Below are positions 1 to 6,357 of a stretch of DNA of 64,000 nucleotides, in pieces. This DNA is from Fibrobacteria bacterium (GTDB lineage: Bacteria; Fibrobacterota; Fibrobacteria; UBA11236). The translations under genes and the position numbers were made by a program. The notes under the pieces are model-generated. The model worked only from the letters and a program-made list of their open reading frames with translations. It ran no database searches and was not told the origin of the DNA. Each line of letters opens with the position of its first letter. Positions within the stretch are counted from its first letter, which is position 1. The stretch is from positions 1 through 64,000 of the forward strand of contig JANYDA010000007.1 in assembly GCA_025360005.1 (NCBI GenBank), in the 5' to 3' direction.

Positions 1-141
1 CTCTTATGGTTTTCATTGGCTCGCCTCGAGCTGCTGATTCACCAATGGACGAAGGCCATTCACATCAATTCCAAATCCTCATTCTTCAAGTGTGTTTGCT
101 TTCACTTCTTTAGAATGGATTACCTCAATGGTCCGTATAAC
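1..141 (-). repeat. Copy of the first-cassette leader (start of cassette 5)
   Basis: This stretch matches 3632-3774 at roughly nine bases in ten. On the minus strand both begin with the recombination core GTTATAC and run into a new cassette. Here it is the start of the fifth cassette, whose body lies left of the window. Both copies contain an open frame of 16 codons with a stop (13-63 here, GTG start; 3646-3696 in the other copy, ATG start), differing at a few codons and using different stop codons. Either the cassette was duplicated or a shared leader was captured twice; the rest of cassette 5 is not visible. Confidence 0.75.
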
Positions 142-298
142 GCCGGATTGAGCGGCAAGCACGGCCGGAGGGGTTGGCCCGGAGGGACAGCTCCGGAGGG
201 TACCGGCGCGACCCTTGCTTATGGACCACAACGAAGAGACAGACCAAGAGCAAGGGGCGTGACGGCCGCGCGCAGTCCGCTCGAATCCGTTGTTATGC
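135..298 (-). other. attC site of integron cassette 4
   Basis: Imperfect palindrome of 164 bp bounded by GTATAAC (135-141) and GTTATGC (292-298). The arms pair as CGGATT-GAGCGG against CGGATTCGAGCGG, the right arm having one extra base. In known attC sites the extra base lies in the L'' box beside R'', and it leaves an extrahelical G on the recombining bottom strand. That places R'' on the right and R' on the left, so the site reads on the minus strand and follows the gene at 389-775. Inner GGCCG-rich stems are also visible. Confidence 0.85.
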
Positions 299-388
299 GG
301 CTTTTCTTTCGTTCGATACACCTGGCCGGAGACCCATTTTGCTTTCCACTTATCGTACATCAAATACGAAAGCAAACTTCGAATTTCA

Positions 389-775
389 CTAAATATTTTC
401 CCAATTTATTCTTGGCTCATCTTTTTTGATTTGCTCCTCATCAATTTGCCATGATTCTGAGTTTTGGAACAATGGCCGTGTATTCTCCAAAATCTCAGCA
501 ATAAATTGGACACCTAGTACAACTTGTTCTTCTAAAGACTTCGCACCTAGCTGAAATAGGTGGGCGTGCCAAGTGGTTTTCTTGATTTTTTCGTCGGCTA
601 AACCAATTGAGATTTCATTACTTTGGGAATCTATCCACAAAATAACATTCTTGTTTGGACTTTCGAATTCTATTTGGATTGATTTTTCAACCCAGAATTC
701 AGTTTTAGGGAAAGCAGCGAGTACTTTCCCTACCTCGCTCTTTAATCGAGTCGAAAGTTCAAATTGTTTCATCAT
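389..775 (-). CDS. Cassette 4 hypothetical protein, 128 aa
   Basis: Not recognised. The product is a soluble, charged protein of 128 residues with no signal peptide or membrane segment. It has an N-terminal helix-like part, a central part rich in alternating hydrophobic residues that looks like beta strands (around residues 30-60), and an acidic and basic tail. The gene is clearly AT-richer than the chromosome right of the integron, as expected of a cassette gene. It starts with two consecutive Met codons and ends about 90 bp before its attC site. Small strand-plus-helix proteins of this kind in integrons can be immunity or antitoxin-like, but nothing here demonstrates that. Confidence 0.65.
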   Translation of the reverse strand: MMKQFELSTRLKSEVGKVLAAFPKTEFWVEKSIQIEFESPNKNVILWIDSQSNEISIGLADEKIKKTTWHAHLFQLGAKSLEEQVVLGVQFIAEILENTRPLFQNSESWQIDEEQIKKDEPRINWENI

Positions 776-803
776 GATAAACGCCCTACTTTTGAATCAG
801 CGC

Positions 804-838
804 CACCCTTCGGAAACCTCTGAGGTGGTGTTTTTTTT
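804..838 (+). terminator. Possible intrinsic terminator
   Basis: A six-base stem (GCCACC pairing with GGTGGT, one G-U pair) is followed by a run of eight T on the plus strand. It lies in the leader of cassette 4 and would stop transcription running against the cassette genes. The stem is short, so this is tentative. Confidence 0.25.
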
Positions 839-944
839 CCCCTTGATTCTTCAGCCGATCCGCCAATTCGAAGTCCTATCTGCTCCTCTCTTCATTTCTT
901 AAATCTCTTCGCATTACATCTCTTGGTTTTCATTTCTTCAGTCC

Positions 945-1081
945 GTATAACGCTCGATTCACCTGCAAACGAGGCTGAAGGGCTTGGCCGGGACGGACAA
1001 GCCCTGAAGGAACCGGCGCAGCGATTGCGCAAACAATCGATGTGACGGCCGAGGCTTGGCAGGTGGAATCGATTGTTATAC
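945..1081 (-). other. attC site of integron cassette 3
   Basis: Palindrome of 137 bp bounded by GTATAAC (945-951) and GTTATAC (1075-1081). The left arm CGATTCACCTGC pairs with CGATTCCACCTGC from the right arm, again with one extra base on the right. The stop codon of the gene at 1076-1618 lies inside the R'' box (GTA-TAA-C), a common arrangement in integron cassettes. The site reads on the minus strand. Confidence 0.87.
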
Positions 1082-1618
1082 GGCGGCGTGCCATTGAGAC
1101 CGCGCAGTTTTGACTAGGCCTGGATTGACCCAAAGAGACTCCGGACATTTTTTATTCCTATTAGATTTTATTTGACTCATCTTTATTAGGCTCACCAGAA
1201 AATCGAAAGAGAAAAGTTGTTTTAATTCGGTAATTGCCGAGTCAGATATTATTTGCCTAGTTTTGTATCCGCCCTCGATGTATCCATTTCCCCCTTCAAT
1301 TTTTCTTCCGTCTTCAAATTGAACTTGGATTTTGTAATCTGCTTCGCCTTCTAAATAGAACCGCACGATATTAGAATCTCCAGTTGGGATCGGATCAAAT
1401 TTCATTGTGCTTTTGAACCCACCGCTACTGTGTTGGAGAACTATTTCTTTTATTTTCAATTTGCTTTGATTTGTTATTTTCACAGTGGCCAATGGTACGC
1501 CGCACACGGATGGGTAAAACAATGAAAGGGGCCCGGCTGTAATAACACCTACAGCATAGGCAACGACTAAGCTTAAACTTAAAATGACAATTATTGCAAC
1601 TTTATTCGCGCGTCCCAT
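1076..1618 (-). CDS. Cassette 3 membrane-anchored protein, 180 aa
   Basis: Residues about 7-30 form one hydrophobic segment, so the protein is probably anchored in the inner membrane with a periplasmic domain. Residues about 45-135 form a beta-rich domain that aligns by eye with the product of 5959-6357: both have an I-x-N-x-S motif, a G-D-S near the middle, F-x-DGR, a GGY turn and a late SDS or NDS. The last 25 or so residues are less similar and end at the stop inside attC. Function unknown. The gene is AT-richer than its chromosomal paralogue. That a cassette gene and a gene just beyond intI share this fold is unusual. Confidence 0.75.
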   Translation of the reverse strand: MGRANKVAIIVILSLSLVVAYAVGVITAGPLSLFYPSVCGVPLATVKITNQSKLKIKEIVLQHSSGGFKSTMKFDPIPTGDSNIVRFYLEGEADYKIQVQFEDGRKIEGGNGYIEGGYKTRQIISDSAITELKQLFSFDFLVSLIKMSQIKSNRNKKCPESLWVNPGLVKTARSQWHAAV

Positions 1619-1653
1619 TTTCTAAGCCTTCGTCTTTTTAATTTTTCTTATTC

Positions 1654-2979
1654 TTATTTATGAATTTTCGTGGGCTTTTTCCGAGTTCCATTTTCCCGTC
1701 CGTATAACGTGCTGATGAGCGGTGAACGAGGCCGAAGGGCTTGGCCTGGAAAGGACAAGCCCGGAGGGTCACCGGCGCGGGCCTTGCCTTCGCAAGGGCC
1801 GTGACGGCCGAGGCTCATCCACTCGATCAGCTTGTTATGCGCCGGTTTTTTCATCTCTTTTTCGGATTCCGGATTTCTCGTCTTATGAATAGAGAATTTC
1901 CTCCCCCACTTCTCTCTCCGTTGGAACCAGGGCTGGAACTTCGCGACTACCACCAAAGGTACTTCACATTCTTTGCATTTGGTTTCCGATTCCTTCTCTT
2001 CCATCTCTTCGAGGGTCTCTTCTCCGTTTTCCATGCGGATTTTTTCAAGGGACGCCGACCAATAGGGATGGAGCAACCCATAGTACCGAAGCCGGACAAA
2101 CCCTTTGGGAAGAATGTGTTGTAGATATCGACGCAAGAACTCCTCTCCCGATATCGACATCTCCCGCATTTCACTTTGGTGCCGGTTCAGACGGTGCCGA
2201 ACCTTGAAAACCACGCCTCCCTTGTCCACTTTCACGATGCGCGAAGCGCCTATTCCTATCCGCTTGATATACCGGCCGAGATATTCGACTACGTTGTGAT
2301 GGCTGGCGAAGTTCTTCTTCGTATAAACCACCCAGGCCAATTTCCAAAACGAGGAGGGGATCTTTTCGCCCAATTCTTCACGCAGCGCATTCAGAAACCG
2401 GGTTTTGAACCACTTGGCCAGGCAGTTGTTGGGGAAAATCACCTTCCTTTGGACCCGCTCGAATTCGCCTTCCTGGTTCAGAAACCCACCGAGCATCATC
2501 ACATGGACGTGCGGAAAGAAGCCCAGCTTTGAATCCCAGGTATGCAGCACGGCCATAAAACCTATCTGGCCTTGAACCCAACGTGGACTGGCACCAAATG
2601 CACCTAGGGTTTCACCCACAGCCTTTAATAACTTGTCGTAAAACACGGATTGGTTTTTCCGCGCTATATAATGGAGTTCGGTCGGAACCGTGAACACCAG
2701 GTGGTAATAGTCCGTCTTCGGAAGACGGCGCTTCGCCGTGTCGATCCATTCTTGGGTGCGGCTGTTGTTGCATTTGACGCAAGCGCGATTCCGGCAGGCT
2801 CCGTTTTTCTCCTCGACCAAGCCACAATTGGTGCAGGCCAGAATAGTCTTTCCGTAGGTTTCCGTGCGGCATTCATTGAAGTTGAGCAGGGCTTTCTTGT
2901 GGCTCGAAGGCATATCCTCTCCGAATTGTCGCAGGTACTTTGGTCCAAACCGATCGAAAATCTCTATGAGCTTGTTCAC
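1654..2979 (-). CDS. IS91-family (HUH, Y2-type) transposase in cassette 2
   Basis: A single-strand DNA transposase of the IS91/IS801 type. Visible in order: an N-terminal zinc-binding region with paired Cys (CTNC near residue 49, then CRNRAC and CVKC), the HUH metal-binding motif in FFPHVHVM (near residue 157), and the catalytic tyrosine motif EYLGRY (Y-x3-Y, near residue 235). Length to the attC boundary is about 380 residues, close to the 400-430 usual for the family. The frame continues through attC (1840-1702) and stops at 1654, so the last 60 or so residues are translated recombination site rather than transposase. It sits alone in its cassette, 154 bp after the cassette start; I could not identify IS ends. 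Confidence 0.85.
   Translation of the reverse strand: MNKLIEIFDRFGPKYLRQFGEDMPSSHKKALLNFNECRTETYGKTILACTNCGLVEEKNGACRNRACVKCNNSRTQEWIDTAKRRLPKTDYYHLVFTVPTELHYIARKNQSVFYDKLLKAVGETLGAFGASPRWVQGQIGFMAVLHTWDSKLGFFPHVHVMMLGGFLNQEGEFERVQRKVIFPNNCLAKWFKTRFLNALREELGEKIPSSFWKLAWVVYTKKNFASHHNVVEYLGRYIKRIGIGASRIVKVDKGGVVFKVRHRLNRHQSEMREMSISGEEFLRRYLQHILPKGFVRLRYYGLLHPYWSASLEKIRMENGEETLEEMEEKESETKCKECEVPLVVVAKFQPWFQRREKWGRKFSIHKTRNPESEKEMKKPAHNKLIEWMSLGRHGPCEGKARAGDPPGLSFPGQALRPRSPLISTLYGRENGTRKKPTKIHK
1702..1840 (-). other. attC site of integron cassette 2
   Basis: Palindrome of 139 bp bounded by GTATAAC (1702-1708) and GTTATGC (1834-1840). The arms GCTGATGAGCGG and GCTGATCGAGTGG pair with one extra base on the right, matching the other three sites. 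Orientation is minus strand, directly behind the transposase domain, whose reading frame passes through the site. Confidence 0.85.
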
Positions 2980-3000
2980 GCATTAGAATTAAATCAGATG

Positions 3001-3017
3001 CATATCCTATGGATATG
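3001..3017. repeat. Perfect inverted repeat upstream of the transposase
   Basis: CATATCC, a three-base loop TAT, then GGATATG. It lies about 20 bp upstream of the transposase start codon at 2979. It could be a transposase-autoregulatory site or part of an IS terminus; the sequence alone does not decide. Confidence 0.4.
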
Positions 3018-3091
3018 ACCGCGCGCACAGACGATGGTTCCAGAGCGAATTATTTTGGTTGGAAGCAGCGAGAATCGTGGAATCAGAGTCT

Positions 3092-3388
3092 TCAGTTACG
3101 GAATTTCTTCTGCTTTTCATTCCGTGCGTATAACACGGGGATAACTTGTGAGCACGGCCGGAGCCCCGCCATTGCGGGGCAATGGGTACCGGCGCGCCCT
3201 TTGCCCTTAGACACCAGAGAATTGCCCGACCCAAAGCAAAGGGCGTGACGGCCGCGCGCAATCAAGTTGATCCCCTTGTTATGCGGAAGCTGTGAGATGC
3301 CGTGCGGTACGATTAAAGGTTCCATGGCGGCGGCCCCTCCAAAGCCCAAACATAAGATAAAGGCGATTAGGCGGACAGGGAGCGGACC
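3092..3388 (-). CDS. Doubtful cassette 1 ORF with a signal-peptide-like start
   Basis: The frame begins with a short hydrophobic stretch (about residues 7-22) ending in GGAAA, like a Sec signal peptide, followed by some 15 residues before the reading frame enters attC at 3284. If real, only a stump of a secreted protein remains and the rest is translated attC. An overlapping frame (3279-3563) stops inside R'' as cassette genes often do, but its sequence looks non-coding. No ribosome-binding site supports either. Cassette 1 may be non-coding or decayed. Confidence 0.22.
   Translation of the reverse strand, partial: GPLPVRLIAFILCLGFGGAAAMEPLIVPHGISQLPHNKGINLIARGRHALCFGSGNSLVSKGKGRAGTHCPAMAGLRPCSQVIPVLYARNEKQKKFRN
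3128..3284 (-). other. attC site of integron cassette 1
   Basis: Palindrome of 157 bp bounded by GTATAAC (3128-3134) and GTTATGC (3278-3284). The arms GGGGATAACTTG and GGGGATCAACTTG pair with one extra base on the right. Inner hairpins include GCCCCGCC-ATT-GCGGGGC and a GCAAAGGGC pair. This is the site closest to the integrase and defines the first cassette as 3134-3773. Confidence 0.87.
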
Positions 3389-3632
3389 CATAATCGCACT
3401 TACAAAGTGAGCGGCTAATGGTTCCGCGGACCGTGGCTCTGAAGCCAGGCCGAGCTCCAACCCGGACTGTTTGTCCCGCGTACGACAGATGACTCGCTTT
3501 GAGTATGAGCCGAACCAAATTACTCGTTGTACGCGGGATCTTAGCCACGGACCCAGTGGGCAAAGCGCCCAGATGCGACCAGTCGCGGAGAATAGACCTC
3601 CAGCGGACGATTAAGCACCGCCGTACCGCACG
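3301..3632. repeat. 330-bp segment bounded by 11-bp inverted repeats in cassette 1
   Basis: CGTGCGGTACG at 3301-3311 is repeated exactly in inverse orientation at 3622-3632. The enclosed DNA has no clear gene. The right repeat abuts the end of the region shared with window position 1. This could be a small non-autonomous element inserted in the cassette, or a regulatory or structured cassette. I see no flanking target duplication. Confidence 0.4.
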
Positions 3633-3774
3633 TCTCTTATGGTTTTTATTCGCTCGCCTCGAGCTGCCGATTCACCAATGGCCGAAGGCCATTCATTTCA
3701 ATTCCGATTCCTTATTCTTGAAGCGTGTTTGCTTTCACTTCTTCAGAATGGATTACCTCAATGGTCCGTATAAC
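3632..3774 (-). repeat. Leader of cassette 1, also found at 1-141
   Basis: This is the integrase-proximal start of the first cassette and matches the DNA at 1-141. On the minus strand it starts at the attI crossover. It includes a 16-codon open frame (3646-3696, ATG to TAA) that keeps its length and most residues in the other copy. It also contains a small palindrome, GGCCTTCGGCC. Whether the micro-frame is translated is unknown. Confidence 0.7.
3768..3774 (-). other. attI: attI crossover of the integron
   Basis: On the minus strand GTTATAC occurs here and is identical to the R' boxes of all four attC sites, but has no palindromic partner on its integrase side. It lies about 255 bp from the most likely intI start and marks where new cassettes enter. 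The adjacent DNA on the intI side is AT-rich, as is common for attI and the cassette promoter. Confidence 0.65.
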
Positions 3775-4030
3775 AATAATATTAACCTTCCCCACATACC
3801 TCCTTCGCAACAGCTTCTTTACCCGAACCGCTCTGTTTGACGGTTTTGGGATTCCGTGTATTGCGATGAACGGAAATTGTTGGCGGTTTGGTGTTATGGC
3901 TGTAAGGCCTTTTTGCATTTGGATTTGGAGGGAGGGATGTGAGGGTCGGCACGGATACTTATGGGCCTGGCGATTCTATTTATTCAAAGTGAAGGCGCGA
4001 AACTGGCTGGGAAAGAGGAAAGAGGGCGGA

Positions 4031-5518
4031 TTGAACGATTCGGTAATCGGGGTTGAACGGAATGAGGGGGTTGGAGTGGAGCGAGGAGTCCTGTTGGAAG
4101 GGGTCGGGGCAAAGTATGAGGAAATATTGGCGCGTGAGCTGGGTATTCCGGGAAACCGGCGGCCTTATTTCTTGAAATGGTTGGGGGAGTTCCTTGAGTT
4201 CTGTCGCGTGCGTCATTTGGGGGAAGGGAATGGGGCGGGACTGGATGTGTTCTTGGAAGGGCTGCGCAAAAGGGGGCGCTTGGGTTTTCAGGTGGAGCAG
4301 GCCCGGATTGCCGTGGAGGTGTATTGGAAACATTTTCGCGTCGGGAAGAGAGGAGGTGTAGGCCTGGAAAGAGTTGCGGTTGTTGCACCGGTGGGAGCCG
4401 GTTGGAAGGATAAGAGGGTAAGCGGCAGTGGGGCGGATGCATCGGTAACCGGTTCGAGCGGGGTGCCGGGATGGGATGCGGAGAAAACTCCGGTGATAGT
4501 TGGGATGGGAGTTACCGAATCGCTGAACGATGAACCCGGATCGAAGGTCGACGCGACGGGGGATTGGAGGATGGCTTTCGCGGCCTTGGCTAAGGAGATA
4601 AAGTTGCGGCATTATTCGGGCCGGACTTTGAAGGCTTACCTGCATTGGGTCAGGGATTTTTCGAGGTATGTGGGCGGGCTGCCGGTGGCGGGTCTGACTT
4701 CAGCGCAGGCGAAAGCGTACATAGCCGATTTGGCCACAGTGAAGAAGGTTGCCGGTTCCACCCAGAACCAGGCATTCAGCGCGTTGTTGTTTTTTTACAG
4801 TCATGTTTTGGGGCTGGATTTGCAGGGGTTGGAGAAGATTCCCAGGGCGGTGCGGCGTCAGGAGATTCCTAGTGTTCTGACGCGCAGCGAGGTGCAGGCG
4901 ATGTTAGCGGGATTGGAATACCCTTACAAATTATTCGTTCAGCTACTCTATGGTTGTGGGTTGCGATTGAATGAGTCGTTGACGTTAAGGGTGCAGGATG
5001 TGGATTTGGAGGGAAGCGCGCTCCGGGTCCATAATGGCAAGGGGAACAAGAGTAGGGCATTGCCTTTGCCAAAGTCGTTGTTGCCTCAGCTCAGGGATCA
5101 TTTGCAATCCTTGCGCGGGTTGTTTGAATCGGATTTGAAGGTGGGATTCGCAGGCGTCTTTTTGCCGGAGGCGCTGGAGCGGAAATATCCGGGCGCTTCC
5201 AGGAGTTGGCCCTGGCAATGGGTTTTTCCGGGCGGGCGGCTTAGCGTATCGGAATCGGACGGACGGCTAAGGCGTTTCCATCTGCACGAGTCCAGCGTCC
5301 AGAAAGAGATCAAGGCGGCTGCGGATGCGGGGCGGCTGTCCAAGCGGGTGACGGCGCATACCTTTCGGCACAGTTATGCCACGCATTTGTTGCAGATGGG
5401 GTATGACATCCGGGTGGTGCAGGACTTGATGGGGCACAATGATTTGGAGACCACCATGATATACACCCATGTCTTACAGTCTTTGGCGGGAAGGGTTGTC
5501 AGCCCGCTCGACGTCTGA
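4031..5518 (+). CDS. intI: Integron integrase with an extra N-terminal domain
   Basis: A tyrosine recombinase that would insert and excise the cassettes at 1-3774. Using the TTG at 4031 (495 aa), the catalytic set is complete: Arg near 312 (CGLRLNE), Lys in GKGNKSR, HTFRH near 443-447, His near 469 (GHND) and nucleophilic Tyr near 478 (IYTHV). The integron-specific insert is present (ALERKYPGA and WPWQWVFP before the HTFRH box). A second, extra N-terminal helical region (about residues 25-105) precedes the usual core-binding domain (from about 165), making the protein some 150-170 residues longer than typical IntI. The TTG has GAGG-rich sequence just upstream; ATG at 3896 is an alternative start. 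The gene is divergent from the cassettes, the canonical layout. Confidence 0.88.
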   Translation: MNDSVIGVERNEGVGVERGVLLEGVGAKYEEILARELGIPGNRRPYFLKWLGEFLEFCRVRHLGEGNGAGLDVFLEGLRKRGRLGFQVEQARIAVEVYWKHFRVGKRGGVGLERVAVVAPVGAGWKDKRVSGSGADASVTGSSGVPGWDAEKTPVIVGMGVTESLNDEPGSKVDATGDWRMAFAALAKEIKLRHYSGRTLKAYLHWVRDFSRYVGGLPVAGLTSAQAKAYIADLATVKKVAGSTQNQAFSALLFFYSHVLGLDLQGLEKIPRAVRRQEIPSVLTRSEVQAMLAGLEYPYKLFVQLLYGCGLRLNESLTLRVQDVDLEGSALRVHNGKGNKSRALPLPKSLLPQLRDHLQSLRGLFESDLKVGFAGVFLPEALERKYPGASRSWPWQWVFPGGRLSVSESDGRLRRFHLHESSVQKEIKAAADAGRLSKRVTAHTFRHSYATHLLQMGYDIRVVQDLMGHNDLETTMIYTHVLQSLAGRVVSPLDV

Positions 5519-5641: not shown

Positions 5642-5962
5642 ATGAGCAGGAACAAAAAAGTTTTTTATCTCATGTTGGGATTCGGCCTTGCCTTAGCGGC
5701 GTATTTGGCTTGGCGGGCCTGGAAGAATCGGGATACCCGCCCCACCTTGGAAGCCGCCGAAGCCAAGTTCAAGGAGCTGTATCCGGGTGTGAAAATCGTG
5801 AACCTGAAAATCACGGTGGATGAGATTTACGCGCGCAATTTCCTGTTCCAGTACCTTAAGCCGGGGAGCGGATCGGAGAGGAGCATCGAGATACAATTCA
5901 TGAAAGACCCGGGGTCGCAGGAATGGGTCCCTGCGCCTCGGCCTCCCGTGGAATTGAAATGA
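5642..5962 (+). CDS. Small membrane-anchored protein, 106 aa
   Basis: Not recognised. An N-terminal hydrophobic segment (about residues 7-27) is followed by a charged domain with alternating hydrophobic residues, probably periplasmic. I chose ATG 5642 because it puts the membrane segment at the N terminus and follows a G-rich stretch; in-frame starts at 5567 (TTG) and 5591 (ATG) would add a polar leader. Its stop overlaps the start of the next gene (ATGA), so the two are probably translated together and may act together. It lies just downstream of intI, outside the cassette array. Confidence 0.6.
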   Translation: MSRNKKVFYLMLGFGLALAAYLAWRAWKNRDTRPTLEAAEAKFKELYPGVKIVNLKITVDEIYARNFLFQYLKPGSGSERSIEIQFMKDPGSQEWVPAPRPPVELK

Positions 5963-6357
5963 GGAAAAATTCCCGCACCTTGCTGGCCGTGCTCGCGCCC
6001 TTGGGCTTAGGGGTGTCCATGGCTCTGGTTTTCCTGGCCAATTACCTCACCAAGAATAAGGCGATCGTGACCATCAGGAATGAATCGGGGTACGATTTGG
6101 TGGGTTCCCAGTTGCGGATATCCTCACAGCCCAAAGAGCAGGAAGCGGGGGAAATCAGGAACGGCGACAGCGCAAAGGTCCAATTTGAAAAATTTGGTGA
6201 CGCGCATTACGAGTTCACGGGCCAATTCCGGGACGGAAGGGCCATGCGGGATTCGGGCGGCTATTTGACTTCCGGCTCTTCTTATAAAGACAATATCCTG
6301 ATTCGATCGCGGAACGACTCCCTGGTGGCGGAATTCCGGCAAGTGGTTTTCAAGTAG
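5959..6357 (+). CDS. Membrane-anchored beta-domain protein, paralogue of the cassette 3 product
   Basis: 132 residues: one N-terminal membrane segment (about residues 8-30), then a beta-rich domain. It shares with the cassette 3 product (1076-1618) the I-x-N-x-S motif, a central GDS, an F-x-DGR motif, a GGY turn and a late NDS. The start at 5959 overlaps the previous stop by four bases, implying translational coupling. Function unknown. The base composition is like the surrounding chromosome, unlike the cassette copy, so this may be the resident version of a family that also travels in cassettes. Confidence 0.7.
   Translation: MRKNSRTLLAVLAPLGLGVSMALVFLANYLTKNKAIVTIRNESGYDLVGSQLRISSQPKEQEAGEIRNGDSAKVQFEKFGDAHYEFTGQFRDGRAMRDSGGYLTSGSSYKDNILIRSRNDSLVAEFRQVVFK

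Follow-up and report, generated by a model that had tools for sequence, protein, structure and literature searches.

The DNA analysed here (hereafter the window) makes up the opening 64 kb of the 149,894-base contig C17, which belongs to a draft genome of 4.98 Mb. It carries what is very probably a sedentary chromosomal integron of the ordinary kind in a little-surveyed lineage; we infer its activity, strand choice, and crossover point from the known integron family. The added interest beyond an earlier, sequence-only reading of this DNA is the long integrase with its conserved extra domain: the N-terminus of the integron integrase (IntI) carries a second core-binding-type domain, which profile comparison, a confident structural model, and purifying selection mark as real and conserved.

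No fewer than four complete cassettes are stored in the array, together with a fragment of a fifth (at least 4.2 cassettes), all on the minus strand, with boundaries set by the R' crossover of known integrons. Specifically, cassette 1 (3134–3773), whose boundary follows the known R' crossover point, is without a clear gene and is common to the sister species G159; cassette 2 (1708–3133) holds an IS91-family transposase; cassette 3 (951–1707) encodes a 180-aa protein with a hydrophobic N-terminus (open reading frame [ORF] 1076–1618, minus strand); cassette 4 (141–950) encodes a 128-aa protein of unknown family (ORF 389–775); and cassette 5 (1–140) is partial, being cut by the contig end, with a start 91 per cent identical to that of cassette 1. 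The sequence-only reading had the array continue beyond the left edge: the partial cassette 5 means that at least one further cassette began there, but the continuation itself is not visible, because window base 1 is also the first base of the contig. Contigs break off in or near attC sites both here and in the genomes of several relatives, as is expected because short-read assembly should break at such repeats, and breaks of this kind probably account for the short look of the array.

The claim that cassette DNA is AT-richer than the chromosome held, as the cassette bodies have GC contents of 39.6, 39.7, 50.0, and 53.8 per cent versus 61.5 ± 3.5 per cent per 600-bp block elsewhere. The gene-bearing cassettes and all four attC sites lie on the minus strand, and the single cassette orientation read earlier from gene direction, the R'' stop codon, and the extrahelical base is borne out by all three, including the TAA within R'' that ends the cassette 3 ORF. 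Cassette 1 has 69 per cent DNA identity to a G159 cassette (locus L037) at a different array position, and cassette content differs between the two sister species. A structured RNA was considered for cassette 1 and is not supported: the window copy beats its shuffles (z = −3.3), whereas the G159 copy does not (z = +0.75). PADLOC assigned none of the cassette proteins submitted to it to defence, Rfam gave zero matches in the window (attC sites included), and a search for a cassette promoter identified none. A chromosomal ORF two ORFs downstream of intI (5923–6357) is related to the cassette 3 protein (30 per cent identity over 122 aa; E = 6e-10), a kinship that hints at exchange between the array and its flank or at one common small-protein family.

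The IS91-family transposase of cassette 2 had been missed in the earlier account of the array content. The protein matches NF033538 (321 bits), Y2_Tnp PF04986 (147 bits), and Zn_Tnp_IS91 PF14319 (75 bits), and inspection by eye shows an HUH-type HVH motif together with the two-tyrosine motif YLGRY. In its zinc-binding domain, HVH motif, and two-tyrosine motif it resembles other IS91-family transposases, from which it differs in being present as a single copy in the genome and in filling an integron cassette. Its ORF (1654–2979, minus strand) runs in frame across the entire attC b and ends about 50 bases into the next cassette. The ends of an IS91-type element were sought by comparison with relatives in the phylum and could not be set, because these relatives are at most 37 per cent identical.

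The four attC sites, all on the minus strand, are attC a (3128–3284; 157 bp), attC b (1702–1840; 139 bp), attC c (945–1081; 137 bp), and attC d (135–298; 164 bp), in agreement with the four palindromes of 137–164 bp described from the letters alone. In the minus-strand direction, every site combines R'' = GYATAAC with a two-nucleotide AA spacer, a 6-bp L stem, and an invariant R' = GTTATAC, in the pattern GYATAAC-AA-[6 bp]-C-[6 bp] ... [6 bp][6 bp]-NN-GTTATAC. The extra base that had been placed always in the same arm is a C at the same position of the L'' arm in four of the four sites, and the R' core reported as identical in all sites and at the presumed attI is indeed found in each of these places. 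The R and L boxes pair in the fold of every site, and each fold beats all 200 of its own shuffles (z from −4.6 to −8.2 for the plus strand and from −3.9 to −5.7 for the minus strand; −6.2/−5.0 for attC a).

The covariance check that had been proposed for these sites was run with two models. Model R1, built from the four attC sites of the window, recovered its own four sites in the genome and no other significant one (150 of 1730 candidates scored); elsewhere, it found two sites in the sister species G159 (E ~1e-28) and one attC of the gammaproteobacterium Simiduia (E = 2e-4). Model R2 was built from 11 gammaproteobacterial attC sites (of Vibrio tubiashii, Simiduia, and one class 1 cassette, the row of which is poorly aligned on its 3' side). 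In the 64 kb, R2 matched exactly the four attC sites at full length and nothing else, all on the minus strand, with E-values of 2.7e-6 (attC a), 1e-7 (attC b), 3.8e-7 (attC c), and 4.4e-8 (attC d). Sites without a covariance score, or folds without L/R pairing, would have spoken against attC sites; both outcomes were looked for and neither occurred.

The attI site (3764–3793, minus strand), which carries the R' core GTTATAC, adjoins intI. Its conservation extends over three species of the genus, in which the sequence GGTTAATA(A/T)TATTGTTATACGGA is kept upstream of intI. The stretch between attI and intI holds a near-palindrome with zero loop in four species, at window positions 3852–3875, L038 1370–1393, L037 2483–2506 (approximate), and L039 ~1033–1056; in G158 (TTCCGGCTATTGCAATAGCCGGAA), G159, and G155 its letters change and the symmetry is kept. 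It looks like an operator, and it differs from the putative LexA box of the genus. The latter is an inverted repeat, TACTGCAC-N20-GTGCAGTA, which brackets the promoter of lexA in each of the six genus genomes (L063–L068) and is likely the LexA box of the lineage. A search for this putative box at intI gave no match upstream of the gene, and SOS control of intI was rejected on that ground.

The gene itself, intI (4031–5518, plus strand), is complete, diverges from the array, and encodes an integron integrase of ~495 aa, matching the earlier description of a complete IntI-type recombinase that points away. The protein scores 376 bits against TIGR02249, the NCBI integron integrase model (cut-off, 265 bits), its IntI-type insert ALERKYPGASRSWPWQWVFP aligns with that of other IntI, and its AlphaFold model matches Vibrio cholerae IntI4 (E = 3e-24). 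The catalytic residues R312, K337, H443, R446, H469, and Y478 are all invariant, with a constant offset of 166 from the published IntI1 residues R146, K171, H277, R280, H303, and Y312. The frame is open from 3725, and a 597-aa ORF starting there was rejected: G159 has stops in the same stretch, and homology begins near residues 117–133 (~4070). For these reasons, translation likely starts at 4031 (TTG) or 4076 (GTG).

What the sequence-only reading, right as to an integron integrase, had missed is the second core-binding domain. This extra N-terminal, SAM-like domain is encoded at 4115–4351 (plus strand; residues 29–107 counted from 4031). Profile comparison within these proteins aligns the extra region to their core-binding domain (78 columns; 98 per cent probability), and a profile of 37 extra regions, run against all PDB sequences, hit XerA (E = 6e-6) and IntI4 (E = 6e-5) in their core-binding domains. 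Alone, 22 of the 37 regions match the Pfam integrase SAM-like domain. The predicted structure of the domain has four helices (pLDDT ~90), and a fold search with it returned Xer and IntI4 as top matches with probabilities of 1.00 and 0.97; their E-values exceeded 0.2, as a helical bundle this small would lead one to expect. Compared with G159, the domain has a dN of 0.23 and a dS of 1.5 (dN/dS ~0.15); its constraint equals that of the core-binding domain, whereas the linker is looser.

The extension could in principle be a functionless by-product, translated from a frame that happens to be open in GC-rich DNA. The start codon is not certain, and the stretch from 3725 to ~4030 is unlikely to be coding. 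Yet the domain is kept across the phylum and in Verrucomicrobiota, its dN/dS is low, and its confident four-helix model is related to the core-binding domain, all of which make a by-product highly improbable.

By frame length and alignment, the long form with two core-binding-type domains is the rule in the host phylum and common in Verrucomicrobiota, and not a quirk of one genome. In the host phylum, almost every full-length IntI is 410–506 aa long. Open frames in the Vibrio and Simiduia loci examined have 311–360 aa, those in a Chloroflexota genome have 348 and 373 aa, and the extra domain is absent from the gammaproteobacterial and Chloroflexota IntI examined. Among 387 Verrucomicrobiota genomes, 108 gave a match at E ≤ 1e-45, most of the frames listed are ~420–570 aa long, and most of the best matches share the same extra domain in an alignment. 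No description of the domain was found in the literature searched, which leaves out most subscription journals. We tentatively suggest, as a possibility for which we hold less than even confidence, a long class of IntI that would comprise those of the host phylum and of most Verrucomicrobiota, would carry two core-binding-type domains in tandem, and has no description in the searchable literature. In this class, the extra domain would alter the grip on DNA; it might clasp attI or the branched stem of long attC hairpins, for instance, or determine the architecture of the synapse.

Of 167 host-phylum genomes, 17 contain an IntI-like match (E ≤ 1e-30), which in some cases is partial or broken, and divergent intI genes with attC arrays recur in other families of the phylum. 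In another family (L046 258–2735; L043 15330–15817), near-uniform 138-bp attC sites lie beside a divergent long-form intI, an arrangement like that of Vibrio superintegrons. The G159 array (L037 68–642 and 1682–2181, minus strand) includes two two-gene toxin–antitoxin-like cassettes, one a clear Phd/ParE pair and the other with a DUF6290 antitoxin-like member and a partner without a clear family (RelE-like by eye); toxin–antitoxin cassettes are typical of sedentary chromosomal integrons. The family tree that had been called for places the window IntI in a clade away from the gammaproteobacterial ones. In this tree of 52 rows, IntI of the host phylum fall into three clades, two of them mixed with Verrucomicrobiota. 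The mixing would fit the movement of whole integron platforms between phyla, and it is suggestive only, because the Verrucomicrobiota rows were chosen as best matches.

A working integron of the known kind would use these parts as follows. IntI, transcribed away from the array, would recombine the folded attC bottom strand of an incoming cassette with attI (3764–3793), and the cassette would land beside attI with its gene pointing away from intI. Recombination between two attC sites would excise or reshuffle cassettes. The second core-binding-type domain, on a long flexible linker, would most likely add contacts to the DNA or within the synapse, perhaps to long attC hairpins or to attI.

Alternatively, the locus could be the relic of a once-active integron, the cassettes and sites of which persist without recombining. 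About one-third of the intI genes surveyed in 2008 were pseudogenes (PMC2426708), and the activity of the window IntI is a prediction. A relic is nevertheless unlikely given the intact frame with all catalytic residues, the low dN/dS across all IntI domains, the conserved attI, and the common cassette at different array positions in two species. It is less probable still, indeed very unlikely, that the integron is not sedentary but was carried in by a mobile element (a genomic island, plasmid, or transposon insert). An IS91-family transposase does sit within the array, and clades that mix the host phylum with Verrucomicrobiota imply past transfer of intI. However, the rest of the 64-kb window holds ordinary chromosomal genes (e.g. 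that for NADH-quinone oxidoreductase subunit L), attI is kept within the genus, and no plasmid match covering 80 per cent of the integrase was found among the best 5000 records. A sedentary chromosomal integron stays our preferred reading.

The long integrase, the usual form in the host phylum and in the Verrucomicrobiota sampled, offers a clean test of a second core-binding-type domain in a recombinase whose substrates are folded single strands; to our knowledge, bench work rests on the short-form integrase. A review from 2021 lists integrons in 14 bacterial phyla, including Verrucomicrobiota and without Fibrobacterota (PMC8618304), and a literature search for integrons together with Fibrobacter or Fibrobacterota turned up no publication on integrons in these bacteria. 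Should the host phylum prove to be Fibrobacterota, it would be newly added to the integron carriers, with IntI-like genes in the 17 of 167 genomes noted above; the claim holds only if that placement is right. The Fib_succ_major domain (TIGR02145) is absent from the genome, an absence compatible with Fibrobacterota.

Among known systems, the class 1 integron shares with the window locus a catalytic core ~48 per cent identical (IntI1) and the same attC logic; it differs in that the window integron is not on a plasmid or transposon, shows no resistance cassettes, and has an IntI longer by ~160 residues at the N-terminus. The sedentary chromosomal integrons of Vibrio (IntI4/IntIA, with VCR-type attC) also have a divergent intI, attI, and oriented cassettes, as well as attC sites of ~130–160 bp with R/L boxes and an extrahelical base, and their cassettes are likewise AT-rich and mostly of unknown function, with toxin–antitoxin cassettes that are seen here in the sister species. 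In contrast to these, the window IntI has the second N-terminal core-binding-type domain, its gene is without a match to the putative LexA box of the genus, and its array is seen only in part. The long IntI of Verrucomicrobiota, although from another phylum, share the same N-terminal extra domain, with 39–48 per cent identity over the matched part, and fall into neighbouring or mixed clades of the tree.
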